64,000 bases of DNA, taken from Coriolopsis trogii. Its lineage: Eukaryota; Basidiomycota; Agaricomycetes; Polyporales; Polyporaceae. The notes below the pieces were generated by a model. It saw nothing but the letters and a program-made list of their open reading frames with translations, ran no database searches and was not told the origin of the DNA. Both the position numbers and the translations under genes were made by a program. Shown here in pieces: positions 29,159 through 35,892 of this stretch; the stretch's first letter is position 1, and every line of letters starts with the position of its first letter. The DNA is taken from positions 4,402,001-4,466,000 of the forward strand of contig JAHYIO010000001.1 in assembly GCA_020543525.1 (NCBI GenBank), in the 5' to 3' direction.

Positions 29159-32100
29159 CTAATCATCGCCGAACATGATCTTCAGGTTCTCGATGCTTTC
29201 TGGATCAGTGTCACGTTTGCCTTTGAAGGCCTCCTTGACAATAGCAGTCTTCCTCTTCTGGATCTGTAATATGCGTCCTTCTATAGTGCCTGAAACCTAC
29301 AAATCATGAGGCACAATCAGCATTGAGTGGGTGACGGCATAAGCTGCGATCACGGACGATGAAGTGCGTGACGTGGACGGTCTTTTCTTGGCCGATTCTG
29401 TGTACGCGGTCAATGGCTGAGAGAACGCGTGAGCAAGGCACGGCTAGTCGAAATGCAGTCTAGTACCGACCTTGGTTCTCCGTGGCCGCATTCCACCAGC
29501 AATCCATCTGCGTGATCGTCAGTGTGCACGATCCACGGGCTCCGAGCCTATGACGATACGTACCATGTATACGTGGTTGGCATTCGTCAACTGGGAAGGC
29601 GTTTGTCAGTAGATAGTCCCATCGTACTCTTGACTCAGGGCTCAGTATGGGTACCCACGTTGAGTCCTACGCCTCCAGCTTTCAGGCTGATGATGAGAAC
29701 TTTCGCATCGCGCGAAGGAGCCTTGAAGCCGTTCACGGCCTCATTGCGCTTCTTCACGTCCATTGAGCCGTCGAAGCGGAACCAGGGGAGGCCCTCACGC
29801 TCCAGGACTGCCTGGATTAGGTCGAGGAAGGAGGTAAATTGCGAGAAGACTACGGCACGAAAGCAAGGATCCTGGTCTCTCAAGCGTCCTGAACACGCGA
29901 TTCGTGGGTGTTCAGCACATTATTCAAAGGCACGACGAGGATGGGATACATACGGAGGTGCTGAACGAGGGCTTCCAGCTTCGTAGAGGAGCGGAAGTCG
30001 TTCCGTCTCAACATGACGGTGGAAGATGGTGCTTGTTCCTCGTCACCAGACTTGTCACCACTATGATTTCTTGAGCGTACAATCTCGAGCAAGTCGCTCT
30101 CCTGTATAGCACATGAGCAAGGGCTAGCGCGCGCGACGCGTCGTTACTCGCCTTGACGGGCCCTCGAGAACATGTTGGACACTTCCCATCTTCGCCTTTC
30201 TCTCTGCACTTCTCAATGAACGCGATGATGCAATCCTTGCAACTACGGAGCGCCCACAGTAAGTACCATTGCTGCTTCAGAAATGCAGGGACACATACCA
30301 CTGATGCAGACAATCGGGGAGGATTGCAGGGGACTCCATCGCGTCGAAACATATCGGACACTCCGCGTCTTCCTCCTGCCCGAGATTGGCGAGGACACCT
30401 TCGGCATAAACCTTGTTGTCACCCGCAGCGTTTTCACCTTTTCCAAAGCGCTGAATGAGCTCTTGTACGTCTACCTCACCGCTACCTCTAGGGGCTTTGG
30501 TGATAGTGCTGTCGCTCCCAGACAAGACCAAATTGGGATGGAGAACGGCACGGCGAAGTCTGGGGAGCATTGATCAGCGATGACAACGGCTTTTTACGAG
30601 GCGCAACTTACCGCATGAGCATGGCTAGAATGTGCGTATAATTGCGGCTCACGAGACCCTTCTCGGAGAGATGCTCGAAGTCCTTCTTTGCGTCGGAGTA
30701 CAGCGAGTCGTAGATCTTGCGTTCAAGCGGAGAGAACTCGAGCATCTCAATCGCAACCTGGGACGATTTGTTTTGAGACAGAAGGTGGCACAAAAGGAAT
30801 ATAACCACGTACCTCCTTGGGCGGTAGTTCGACTATGCGCTTGCCATCAGAATCCAGCATGTCTTTCTCGCGACGCAAAAGGACGCTCTCGAGGATGATC
30901 TGAACGACCTCCACAGCCTTCCGATCGCGTGCAAGGAATGGCAGAGTAATGAAGCTGAAGCATCTGTTAGATGTGATACAATGACACCTGAGCTAATACT
31001 CACGAGCGGAAGAACGTGTAGTTGGACCAGGGCTGGAAGTCCAAGAACTTCCTGCGGCACGACGTCAGTATAGGTGAAGATACCGTTTCAGATGTCCACG
31101 TACAAGAGCGAGTACAGATCCTCCAGGCGATTGACGATCGGCGTGCCAGTGACTGCCCACCGCCTACGTGCACGAAGCGCATACACCGCCTTCGCGGTCT
31201 TGCTCGTTCGAGATTTGCAATGGTGAGCTTCATCGAGTACGACCCCTGTCCGATACTGTAAGCAACTATATGCATAGCGTACTGAGTGCGAAACGCCTCA
31301 CGCAGCCATTCCACTGTCGGTTCGAACATAAACACATGTCGATGGAATCCATATGCTATCACGCACCTTCGAAGATAGTCGAGGGTTGCCTCTCATGCTT
31401 CGCATGCTCCGATACTAGCGTTCCGTATGACGTGACGACTACAGTGATCGCAGATTCGTTGTCTACGGCAGCGTCTAGGTCGAGTCGGTTTTGTCCATGC
31501 CAGACTGTGACCTTGATCGTGTCCGGTTTACTTGAGCGTTGGAGCTCCTCGGCCCATTGAGCAAGGAGCGAAGTAGGTGCAACGATCAAAGTCGCAGAGG
31601 GCCCTTTCCGTTGGCCTGGCGGAGGATTGGGCATGACACGGAAGGCGCTGTTGAGTCTGAGCTGCTTCGCCTTGGAGCTGCTCGTGTATTCCGCAGGGGC
31701 TTCGGGTTCTCGAGCGGTCTGGATGAGAGCAGAAAGCATTATTGTCTTGCCCATACCCACTGAGTACCTCGTCAGCGTGCATGAAACACGCGCAGAGCTA
31801 AAGCACTTACTCTCTACAAACCGTATCAAAGGACAGTCAGTGCCGGTCAGACGATGTTAGACGACTGTATGCATGTGAATTGACATACCGTCTCTACAAT
31901 GAAAAATGAGTACGCGCATGATACTTGCAGTGTAGATACTTACGCTAGAATGCCACCTTTACACTTTCGTTCCGCCTTGGGGAACTCAAGGCTCAGCTCG
32001 CCCGAGTACTCGTTGAAGTAGAACGATCGTTCGTCAGCAGTAAGATCTATCATATCATCGTTGGGGTCGTAAGGGAAGACATATCTGTGAGCAAGTCAAA

Positions 32101-33674
32101 CTCCTGCGCACATACGTCGTAGATCATTGACCTACTCCTTCCATAGAGGATGCAACGATCGCGCCTCTCGTGCAGAAGTCGCACCCGTCTCGATGGAGTG
32201 CATCCACCTAGAGAGAGATCAATACGAGACAGCGCACAGAATCAAGGACGCAGAACGCACAGGAGCGCTTGTTTCTGGTAGCCTCGCAGCTTCAGAGTGA
32301 ACGTGTCACCAGGCTCCATCTCCCCGAGCTTGCTGTCGTTCTGTTGCGCTCTTGATGATTCTCAGTCTCACGTACATAACGAACATCCACGTGCAAACCG
32401 TACTTCTTATATATGAGGTTAATCTGTTCCTCGGTGATGTCGCCTTCTTCGTCGTCGTCCTCTCCTGCTTGCGTCTGCTTGACGGCGCCCGGCCGTTGCG
32501 TAAGCAGCTCAAGGTCCTGTGCGCCAAGTTTGCCATTGGTGGAGAGGGGTCGAGGGCTCTTTCGTGGCTTCAGGTTGATCTTCTTGAACAAGTTGAGGAG
32601 CGAACGTTTGCGTTCCCGCAGTATTTGCTCGGCTTCTGTCTCATGACTTTCATTGAACATCACCTTCGAGCTATCATCGGCAGCAGACGCCACTTTGGGA
32701 GGTCGGAAAGCGGATGGCTTTATATAGACAGATAGCGACAGTATGAGGTCTGCACCGGTTGTAAGCTTTGCTGGGCACTCGACCATTGTGCACTTTTTGA
32801 ACTCCACGATATCTATCACAGAGTGAGAATGGTGGCAGAATCGAACACCTTCTTCTAGCACTCACCTAGGTCGAGAAGACGTGAGACCCACGACGCAACC
32901 TCTTGAGGCAATCGACCAAACTCTGCAGGATGATGGGCGTCATGACATTGTATGTAGGCTCATAAGGGACCAACCGAATCCTCGCGAGTTCGTGATGCGA
33001 ACCACAGAGTCCTGCTTCTTCTTATTTGGCTTTGGAGGCGCGGGCTTGAACATGTTGGCTATCGTAAGTTGCTTCTTTCCGTCTGTACCCTTCTTAGCAG
33101 GCTTCTTGGGTAGTGGAGGGAGCGCTTTCTCGGGCTCTTCACGCTCTATTCGTATCTCATCCCCGGCTTTGATGTACCCCGTACCTTTGACCGTGCTCCA
33201 CGCATTGTCAACGAGGAAGTAACCGAGATACATGGACTCTGACTCTGGTGTCTTCGGATCCATGTTACGATCGGGGGACAGCTTTCGCCGTTTGATTGGT
33301 GGACCTTCGGTACGCAAAGGGGGAAGGGGAACAGGAAGAGGGGAAGAGTCCCGGGTCTCGTGTACTCCGGAAGACATACTGGAAACACTCGATGCCCTGG
33401 GTACGTCGACATATTCGGGAAGATCTAGCACATCGAAGTCATCTTCTCCCGCATCTTGCTCTAAAGGCTGGGAGTAAGGTCTATAGCTGGGAGATTCCTC
33501 GTCGTCACTGTCGGCAAAGAACAGGGGTTTCTGTGTCGAGGGTAGAGGGCGCTTTGTCGCGCTTGGTTCTACGTTCAGAGGCTGCGCAGGGGGTGGTGGA
33601 GAGACACGGTTCGGCTCTAAGTCCTCGTCATCAGATCCAGCAAAGAACATAGGGTGATCGCCGTCGCGGTCCAT
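29159..33674 (-). CDS. rad5: RAD5/HLTF-type DNA repair helicase and ubiquitin ligase
   Basis: 22 exons reconstructed (minus): 33674-32975, 32922-32866, 32812-32376, 32340-32261, 32207-32136, 32084-31944, 31893-31889, 31813-31811, 31759-31367, 31313-31302, 31245-31104, 31051-31004, 30954-30813, 30757-30612, 30559-30299, 30242-30152, 30101-29954, 29888-29659, 29590-29564, 29507-29471, 29416-29358, 29296-29159; 1122 residues. Domains in order: acidic N-terminus, HIRAN (about 150-310), SNF2 ATPase with DEMGMGKT (about 497) and DEAHH, a C3HC4-like RING (CPICFDAM to CPTCSR, about 858-903) inside the helicase lobes, then the C-terminal helicase domain with VGLN and DRVHRIGQ. This order is diagnostic of Rad5. 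Known role: polyubiquitination of PCNA and fork reversal in error-free damage tolerance, nuclear. Micro-exons of 5, 3 and 12 nt and one GC-AG intron (30151-30102) are needed. Confidence 0.92.
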
Positions 33675-33932
33675 GACAAGTCGACGCGGAGAGGTAACCG
33701 TAGGGCGTATGAGTCGAAAAGTGACGCGTAGAGTCGCGTCGCGTCAGCTAAGCAGCTTGCAGCCACAGACGCGGGTCCGACGCGTCAATACAGCCAAATA
33801 GCAAATGTCTCTGATAGGCAGTTCAGTCTCACGCATAACTTGACGTCTTGAGAATTCAATCGAAAGTGCTTAGAACTCATTTGGCCGGTCTACTCTCCCT
33901 CCCCTCCACCTCATCGTTCACGTCATCACAAA
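33675..33932. promoter_or_regulatory. Bidirectional promoter with two ACGCGT (MCB-like) boxes
   Basis: 258 bp between the start codons of rad5 and cct7. ACGCGT occurs at 33724-33729 and 33780-33785, with related TCGCGTC repeats between them. ACGCGT is the MBF site of yeast S-phase genes; its use here is inferred. Confidence 0.6.
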
Positions 33933-35892
33933 ATGCAGCGGGGACTTCCAATGGTATGTTTACACACTTTTTGCCATGGTTTGCATCTGACAAGTCTGCA
34001 GCAACCGACCGTAGTCCTCCTGAAGGAGGGCACGGACACCTCTCAAGGAAAACCTCAACTCCTCTCGAACATCTCAGCATGTCTCGCGATATCCGAGACG
34101 CTTTCGAGCACCCTTGGTCCTCGCGGAATGGACAAGCTCATCGTCAATGAGCGTGGCGAGGCTCAGATCACGAACGATGGTGCGACTATCCTCAAGCTCC
34201 TTGACATCGTACATCCTGCCGCGCGTACACTCGTGGATATCGCCCGGGCCCAAGACGCTGAGGTCGGCGACGGTACTACAAGCGTTGTGCTTCTTGCTGC
34301 GCAGCTGTTGAAGGAGGTCCGTGGATACATCGAGGAGGGCGTGAGCCCGCATATTATCATGAAGGGTTTCAGGAAAGCTGCCGAGCTGGTGAGTGTCATT
34401 CAGGAAGTTGTAACACACGGCCTCATGAAGCATATAGGCGATAGAGCACATCAAGTCTGTTCAAATCACCATTGACAAGTCAGATCCCGAGTACGTACAA
34501 CCTGTCTAAAACGGACAAGCAAAGGAGCTCATCATATGACCAGACAATTCCGTTCCCTTCTCCTCAAATGCGCGTCCACATCCATGTCTTCAAAACTTAT
34601 CCACTCAGAAAAGCCTTTCTTCTCGAATATGGTCGTCGATGCCGTGCAGTGTCTCGACCAGGACGACTTGAACGAGAACCTCATCGGCGTGAAGAAGGTA
34701 CCCGGAGGCGGCATGCAGGACTCGCTCCTGGTCAAGGGCGTCGCGTTCAAGAAGACGTTCACATATGCAGGTGCTGAGCAGCAGCCGAAATCGTTCCGCG
34801 ATCCGCTCATCCTGAGTTTGAACGTCGAGCTGGAACTGAAGGCCGAGAAGGACAATGCTGAAGTCCGCGTAGAGCACGTATCGGACTACCAGGCTATTGT
34901 CGATGCTGAGTGGGAGATCATCTACCGGAAGCTCGAGGCAATCGAGAAGACCGGCGCAAAGGTTGTCCTCAGCAAATTGCCTATCGGTGACCTCGCGACA
35001 CAGTGGTTCGCCGACCGCGACATCTTCTGCGCCGGTCGTGTTCCTGCTGACGATCTCAACCGGGTTGTCCAAGCAGTCGGTGGCTCCATCCAGTCCACCT
35101 GCTCCGATATCAAGCGCGAGCATCTGGGAACCTGTGGTTCCTTCGAGGAAAAGCAGATTGGAGGAGAGCGTTACAACCTCTTCACGGAATGTCCGAAGGC
35201 AAAGACTTGCACTCTCATCCTTCGAGGAGGTGCGGAGCAGTTCATCGAGGAGGTCGAGCGGAGTCTGCATGATGCTATCATGGTGGTGAAACGTGCGGTC
35301 AAGAACGGCGACATCGTTGCGGGTGGAGGTGCAATCGAGGTACGGCTCGCCAAGTTGCTTATCTTGGAAAATTTGCTCTTACATTAGTGTGCTCGATGAC
35401 AGCTGGACCTATCTTCACGCATCCGTAAACACGCCTTGTCAATTCCGGGCAAGCTCCAACTAGTCATGATGGCGTTCGCGAAGGCGCTCGAAGTCATTCC
35501 GCGACAGATTAGCGACAACGCGGGCTTGGACTCGACGGATATCCTGAACAAGCTGCGCATGAAGCATGCAAATGGTGAAAAGTGGTTTGGTGTCGACGTC
35601 GACGGGTCTGACGGCATCCGCAACAATTTCGACGCCTTTGTTTGGGAGCCCAGTCTGGTCAAGGTGAACGCGATCAATAGCGCGACCGAGGCGGCCTGCT
35701 TAATCCTGAGCGTCGATGAGACCGTCAGGGCACCACAGAGCGAAGCCGTAAGTGTCGTCCCCGCATTGACCGTCTTCCGACCGCTTAGCTGACGCGCCCT
35801 GTCCTATATAGCAAAATCCAGGACCCAGGGCGCCGCCGGGGACGGCTCAGAGGGCACTCCGAGGAAGGGGACGTGGGATGCCAAGGCGGTGA
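33933..35892 (+). CDS. cct7: Chaperonin CCT/TRiC subunit eta
   Basis: Exons 33933-33953, 34002-34388, 34438-34490, 34544-35339, 35403-35747, 35812-35892; 560 residues, the usual length. The N-terminus [20 protein letters not shown] is typical of eta. Group II chaperonin motifs: [29 protein letters not shown], the ATP-site [11 protein letters not shown], the apical segment with [22 protein letters not shown], and [14 protein letters not shown] near the end. It forms part of the hexadecameric cytosolic chaperonin that folds actin, tubulin and WD-repeat proteins. The C-terminal tail is Gly/Arg/Pro-rich. It is divergent from rad5. Confidence 0.95.

Follow-up and report, generated by a model that had tools for sequence, protein, structure and literature searches.

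The RAD5 gene and its two micro-exons

The window, which is the whole 64,000-nt stretch of Coriolopsis trogii DNA that was analyzed, contains on its minus strand a gene of the RAD5/HLTF type (Table 1). A Pfam scan found the HIRAN (PF08797), SNF2 N-terminal (PF00176), RING (PF00097) and Helicase_C (PF00271) domains in one protein. Polypore RAD5-type proteins were the nearest among the matches listed, with Dichomitus squalens, which a taxonomy look-up placed in Polyporales, showing 89% identity over residues 410-780, and many of the matches listed were named DNA repair protein RAD5. Over the same residues the identity to the 14 best-listed relatives was 81-89%. The best sequence match of the window protein in the PDB was entry 6l8n, Rad5, which has ILADEMGLGKT at the motif I site. 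Hence, the host gene is the 22-exon RAD5 of a polypore fungus, and the identity proposed in an earlier note on this DNA is borne out by both the domain content and the relatives.

The Pfam scan, the protein searches and the column alignment were based on an earlier model of 1122 aa, which differs from the final 1116-aa model at intron 3. The residues that differ between the two models are outside the searched regions (410-780, 468-518, and 468-517); the PDB query included residues affected by intron 3, and its best match starts downstream of them. The 53-nt length of intron 3 was set by comparison with relatives, which have the sequence LIYKKAQQND, and a 35-nt intron at this place was rejected on the same sequence. 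The gene also has a GC-AG intron (window 30151-30102, AAG/GCGAGT...ATACAG). A chaperonin CCT subunit gene, which we take to be eta-like, is located head to head with RAD5, with open frames at 33852-35387 of the plus strand.

Table 1. Positions in the window of the RAD5 gene and of the exons and introns discussed
Feature	Position	Strand	Description
RAD5/HLTF gene	29159..33674	minus	hand model: 22 exons, 21 introns, 1116 aa
Exon 6	31944..32084	minus	ends ...GGCATTCTAGC (GGIL and first two bases of the A codon)
Intron 6	31894..31943	minus	50 nt, GTAAGT...TTGTAG, CTCAT 13 nt from 3' splice site
Exon 7	31889..31893	minus	AGACG (5 nt, micro-exon): supplies the last base of the A codon, the D codon and base 1 of the E codon
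Intron 7	31814..31888	minus	75 nt, GTATGT...TTGTAG, CTGAC 23 nt from 3' splice site
Exon 8	31811..31813	minus	AGA (3 nt, micro-exon): supplies bases 2 and 3 of the E codon and base 1 of the M codon
Intron 8	31760..31810	minus	51 nt, GTAAGT...ACTCAG, CTGAC 12 nt from 3' splice site
Exon 9	31367..31759	minus	starts TG GGT ATG GGC AAG ACA: end of M, then G-M-G-K-T
Exon 10	31302..31313	minus	12-nt micro-exon, about VEWL, upstream of DEAH box
Exon 19	29564..29590	minus	27-nt small exon, LTNANHVYM

Three GT-AG introns split SNF2 motif I of this gene within 8 coding bases. Exons 7 and 8, which are located between them, are internal coding exons of at most 15 nt with GT-AG introns on both sides, as is characteristic of ultra-short micro-exons. 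Splicing of exons 6-9 on the minus strand gives GGILADEMGMGKT, in which the four-exon junction sequence is GGCATTCTAGC-AGACG-AGA-TGGGTATG, and the phases GC^A GAC G^AG A^TG lead to A-D-E-M. The coordinates, the exon sequences AGACG and AGA, and the intron lengths of 50, 75 and 51 nt were all exact in the earlier note.

The proposal that ADEM can be built only by way of a 5-nt and a 3-nt exon agrees with an exhaustive enumeration of introns of 30-200 nt taken in succession, which found one GT-AG parse only. Five near variants of ADEM gave zero parses when introns of 20-200 nt were enumerated. When a minimum intron length of 45 nt was set, 32 in-frame parses of up to 10 codons were possible in the real stretch; half of them (16) are stop-free, and just one of these spells the SNF2 motif. 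When the two outer splice sites were fixed and introns of 45-120 nt were considered, an ADEM parse arose in 1 of 20,000 dinucleotide shuffles, and an ADEM parse with GTRNG donors in none of the 20,000. The spliced motif ILADEMGMGKT, as first proposed, is supported by this unique parse and by the relatives described below.

The consequences of omitting the micro-exons are different for the two. Joining of 31944 straight to 31759, with both micro-exons omitted, leads to a frameshift, and so does the omission of the 5-nt exon alone, while the omission of the 3-nt exon alone stays in frame and gives ADVGMGKT. An alternative AG is present beside each micro-exon (TAGAG, with the cut after the last base), the use of which would leave an exon of 3 nt (ACG) or 1 nt (A); each was rejected, as alone it shifts the frame or the motif.

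Splice sites and intron lengths

The splice sites of introns 6-8 were compared with those of 32 other introns from the same genome, of which 18 were from the RAD5 gene and 14 from SNF2 paralogues. The data showed that the donors of introns 6, 7, and 8 outscore 20, 22, and 16 of these introns, respectively. The acceptors of introns 6 and 7 outscore 26 and 22 of them, while the acceptor of intron 8, GAGGTACTCAG, is weak and outscores just one. The view that the acceptors are good is therefore right for the two TAG acceptors and does not hold for the last one. Among decoys in coding exons, scored with a training set that had one misplaced intron, 54% of 151 AGs score at least as high as the intron 8 acceptor, while the intron 6 and intron 7 acceptors are equalled by no more than 3%, and the three donors by no more than 1% of 94 GTs. 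All three introns contain a branch-like CTNAY sequence, at 13 nt (intron 6), 23 nt (intron 7) and 12 nt (intron 8) from the acceptor, and intron 7 has further branch-like motifs at 33 and 43 nt from the 3' splice site. Overall, introns 6-8 resemble the other RAD5 introns in length, in donors, and in two of the three acceptors.

The 21 introns of the hand model are 49-75 nt long, with a median of 53 nt, which is a setting of intron definition, in which the length of an exon matters less. Hence, the earlier description of the 3-nt exon as extreme for exon definition does not apply to this gene. Exons of 1-6 nt have been published in plants, flies, and fungi, as described in four reports (PMC4674806, PMC12940212, PMC7392893, PMC1184071), which makes a 3-nt exon rare and not unprecedented.

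The ADEM motif in related RAD5 proteins

The comparison with RAD5 of relatives, which had been proposed as a check on the micro-exons, was made with proteins. Three protein searches gave 3684, 129, and 138 matches under the E-value limit, and the best 120 of each were listed, with a union of 162 proteins. All 162 were classified by pattern counts, GKS forms included, because the column alignment mis-registered the E of ADEM, with 0 agreement even in carriers. Among the matches listed, ADEM is present in 12 of 12 RAD5 sequences of lgn/jgi source, and in 28 of 150 annotated relatives, of which 44 read ADV and 78 differ otherwise (12/12 versus 28/150, Fisher 1.2e-8, to be taken as a rough guide since the sequences are not independent). 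The motif queries, in the ADEM and ADV forms, enrich the listings for those forms. The query of the first search had 371 residues (410-780) and was not centred on the motif, and among its listed matches alone 8/8 lgn/jgi sequences and 18/112 annotated relatives have ADEM. By form, the 150 annotated relatives comprise DV (44), DEM (28), [SPTAILV]V (21), other (19), a DG start (16), proteins without a readable ILA..GxGK (12), other D forms (5), [YCW][RK]V[ML] (4), and DVM (1).

The coding part makes up 83-97% of the contig in 10 of the 12 lgn/jgi sequences. These contigs have no space for about 20 introns of 50 nt, the number assumed here, and are therefore taken to be cDNA-like, while P0125 (CDS 60% of the contig) and P0036 (23% of a 15-kb contig) are less clear as cDNA. 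The lgn/jgi entries are assembled consensus sequences, in which minor isoforms would not appear. In the search with the ADV query, ADV was read in 0 of the 7 lgn/jgi sequences among the matches listed, and all 7 read DEM.

The ADV form is the exact product of skipping the 3-nt exon (GC-AGACG joined to TG). It is annotated in Trametes, Scleroderma, Agaricus, Amylostereum, and Gloeophyllum, among others, and also in Sanghuangporus, Serendipita, Tulasnella calospora, and Rhizoctonia, by way of which its range reaches Hymenochaetales, Sebacinales, and Cantharellales; the order of Rhizoctonia, and the orders of the ADV genera other than Sanghuangporus, Serendipita, and Tulasnella, are those that we assume for them. 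Two other Tulasnella proteins read DEM. Several pairs of similar sequences are discordant at this site. P0056, an lgn sequence with ADEM, is 95% identical to the annotated RAD5 of Armillaria fumosa, which has AYV; P0086 (ADEM) and Pisolithus croceorrhizus (ADGKM) share 90% identity, P0132 (ADEM) and Thelephora ganbajun (AKHV) 80%, and P0146 (ADEMGMGKS) and Rhizoctonia solani (ADVGMGKS) 72%. Some close annotated relatives do carry ADEM, for example Suillus weaverae, which is 92% identical to P0043. Going by their names, the nearest annotated relatives of the lgn/jgi entries are presumably all outside Polyporales.

Some of the deviating forms could be decoded by codon inspection, and many were left undecoded, for example the 19 counted as other. 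The DG forms, which continue with K, M, N, T, I, E, or V, may result from read-through of GAC G into a donor such as GTAAG, GTATG, or GTAAT. The forms WRVM (Ganoderma), YRVL (Fomitopsis), CKVM (Leucogyrophana), and YKVL (Auriscalpium) could be explained as GC+GTRN, AGA/AAA+GTAW, TG, in which the next GT, 4 bases on, would be used at the intron-6 and intron-8 donors with the 3-nt exon retained. The DVM form of Gelatoporia could correspond to G+TAA+TG, with TAA from AGAGTAAGT; this sequence stands in the window too, where ADVM is among the spurious parses. Some of the error patterns in the proteins of relatives would thus point to an AGA or AAA exon. Altogether, 122 of the 150 annotated relatives among the matches listed are without DEM at this place, which suggests a systematic annotation error, and analyses that rely on the ATP-binding motif as annotated in these proteins are misled by it. 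At the site of exon 10, 82 of the 150 annotated relatives among the matches listed have an intact pattern around VEWxRVVLDEA. In the Daedaleopsis protein (P0017) ADEM is annotated correctly, yet the 12-nt exon 10 and the 27-nt exon 19 are missing.

Probable splicing of the micro-exons, and introns in motif I of other SNF2 genes

These data make it very probable that both short stretches, of 5 and 3 nt, are true micro-exons of the housekeeping gene RAD5, constitutively included, intron-defined, freed by stepwise intron removal, and old in Agaricomycetes. With introns of about 50 nt, recognition across each intron is the simplest scheme, and each short intron would be recognized across itself as a unit. 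U1 at a donor covers three exon bases before it. At the donor of intron 8 these three bases are the whole of exon 8, which would clash with the recognition of the intron 7 acceptor. Removal of the neighboring introns one after another, in either order, would avoid this overlap of U1 with the 3' splice site, and the mature C. trogii mRNA would then encode ILADEMGMGKT and a normal Rad5 ATPase. As far as indirect evidence goes, the micro-exon pair is constitutive, and it is probably old in Agaricomycetes. The proteins of relatives contain signs that the 3-nt exon is common to Polyporales through Cantharellales; it may have been in place early in Agaricomycetes, and in several lineages the 5-nt exon probably was as well, to judge from the same proteins.

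A different reading of the ADV forms would be that the 3-nt exon is optional or unused, and that the main or regulated product is ADVGMGKT, an ATPase-impaired Rad5 which keeps HIRAN and RING. The in-frame skip, its exact product in 44 of the 150 annotated relatives among the matches listed, and the weak intron 8 acceptor could each be taken in its favor. However, annotation pipelines unable to place a 3-nt exon would produce the same ADV error, and ADV is present in 0 of 12 lgn/jgi sequences among the matches listed. The skip would also need a 129-nt intron (31888 to 31760), which is longer than all 21 introns of the model, it would meet the very same weak acceptor, and it would delete the conserved E-M of the motif. 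Hence, we consider this reading improbable. The sequence TAG-AGA-GTAAGT, where acceptor and donor are three bases apart, could suggest a stwintron, with a split donor and nested intron, or recursive splicing, with no true exon between the introns. It is very hard to reconcile this with the observation that each intron has its own donor and acceptor, that the zero-length-exon AG/GT is absent there, and that the three exonic bases AGA between introns 7 and 8 are needed in the mRNA for ADEM, for which the plain route through three introns was the sole one found by enumeration of introns in succession. Decay or misassembly of this RAD5 copy, with a motif that is simply broken, as the frameshift on direct joining of the flanking exons might suggest, is hardly credible given that the remainder of the reading frame (1116 aa in all) is open, with an identity of 81-89% to the 14 best-listed relatives over residues 410-780, that the exon directly after the motif has a single match in the 38.8-Mb genome (G000), at its own locus, and that relatives show trouble at the same motif site.

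The two RAD5 micro-exons, taken as genuine, have partial counterparts in earlier reports. The CYP621A gene of Fusarium, an ascomycete P450, has one 1-nt exon per gene, with RNA reads behind it; it is similar to RAD5 in that a tiny fungal exon in a conserved motif is needed for the frame and was missed by annotation, while it differs by the single exon of 1 nt, in contrast to the tandem of 5-nt and 3-nt exons in RAD5, a basidiomycete gene for an SNF2 ATPase (PMC12940212). Arabidopsis APC11 also has a constitutive ultra-short exon, of 1 nt, for which the authors favor intron definition with stepwise removal as more plausible; unlike RAD5, it is a plant gene and the exon was experimentally tested. 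Before APC11, in 2015, the smallest known constitutive exon was of 6 nt and the smallest alternative one of 3 nt (PMC4674806). In plants, conserved exons of at most 15 nt are mostly absent from annotation, which is a known problem, and rice has an adjacent pair of 5-nt and 12-nt exons; these clusters are conserved and pervasively misannotated, as the RAD5 exons probably are, and differ from RAD5 in being from plants and having genome-wide RNA-seq evidence (PMC8831610). The P450 family of the white-rot fungus Phanerochaete chrysosporium has frequent introns of 45-55 bp and common micro-exons, while the shortest exon reported there is 6 bp (PMC1184071). The 3-bp micro-exon of Drosophila homothorax is of the same length as exon 8 and is from an animal, where it is alternatively spliced (PMC7392893). 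In Trichoderma Xlr2 a fungal micro-exon was also overlooked by annotation; its inclusion is regulated, in which it differs from the RAD5 pair, which is probably constitutive (PMC11121469). Among the papers listed from the open-licence PMC literature, no report of micro-exons at the RAD5 motif I site was found; the 10 listed of 17 papers that contain both RAD5 and microexon deal, by title and opening of the abstract, with other matters. The tandem placement in a catalytic motif, the apparent depth across Agaricomycetes, and the damaged annotation are the notable features of this case. If its presence across these orders is confirmed, the 3-nt exon would rank among the shortest known exons with deep conservation, and could serve to test in nature how an intron-defining spliceosome copes with exons shorter than the U1 footprint.

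Introns in motif I were also observed in other SNF2 genes of the genome. In a sample of the best 30 of 60 genome matches plus the window gene, motif I was readable in 18 genes, and 13 of these have at least one intron inside its nine codons (L082, L083, L084, L085, L087, L088, L089, L092, L093, L096, L107, L109, and the window gene), with 17 introns in 486 nt, boundaries and count being made by hand. Across RAD5 as a whole the intron density is 0.63 per 100 nt. Against this rate, the excess in motif I has a Poisson probability of 3e-8; with a baseline of 0.95, a higher value that we set ourselves, it is 7e-6. Motif III (TGTPxxN) is interrupted or not found in 4 of the 18 genes (Fisher 0.007 versus motif I, a comparison made after the pattern was noticed). 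By these counts, SNF2 motif I resembles a hot spot for introns. A class-wide 3-nt exon together with the introns crowding motif I of other SNF2 genes could suggest that junctions in the catalytic motif are selected, either as a fail-safe or as a switch with ADEM on and ADV off. That the 3-nt exon has been in motif I since the Agaricomycetes ancestor, works as an exon class-wide, and reflects such selection is rather unlikely; if true, an in-frame ADEM/ADV switch would separate the ATPase of Rad5 from its RING and HIRAN functions.

Small exons are also present among these genes. At about 995-1005 of L096 (contig C7), which we take to be a RAD16-like gene, the DEMG part of motif I is encoded by an 11-nt exon, GACGAGATGGG, that has introns of 63 nt and 54 nt on its two sides. 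At about 882-904 of L088, which is the same gene as L111 (contig C5), a 23-nt exon flanked by introns of 59 and 53 nt contains most of motif I. On the reverse strand of L085, presumably a MOT1-like gene, an intron at about 1446-1501 is located at GAC G^AC and matches intron 7 of RAD5 in codon and phase. Separately, a scan of viral contigs gave 80 loci encoding SNF2 relatives.
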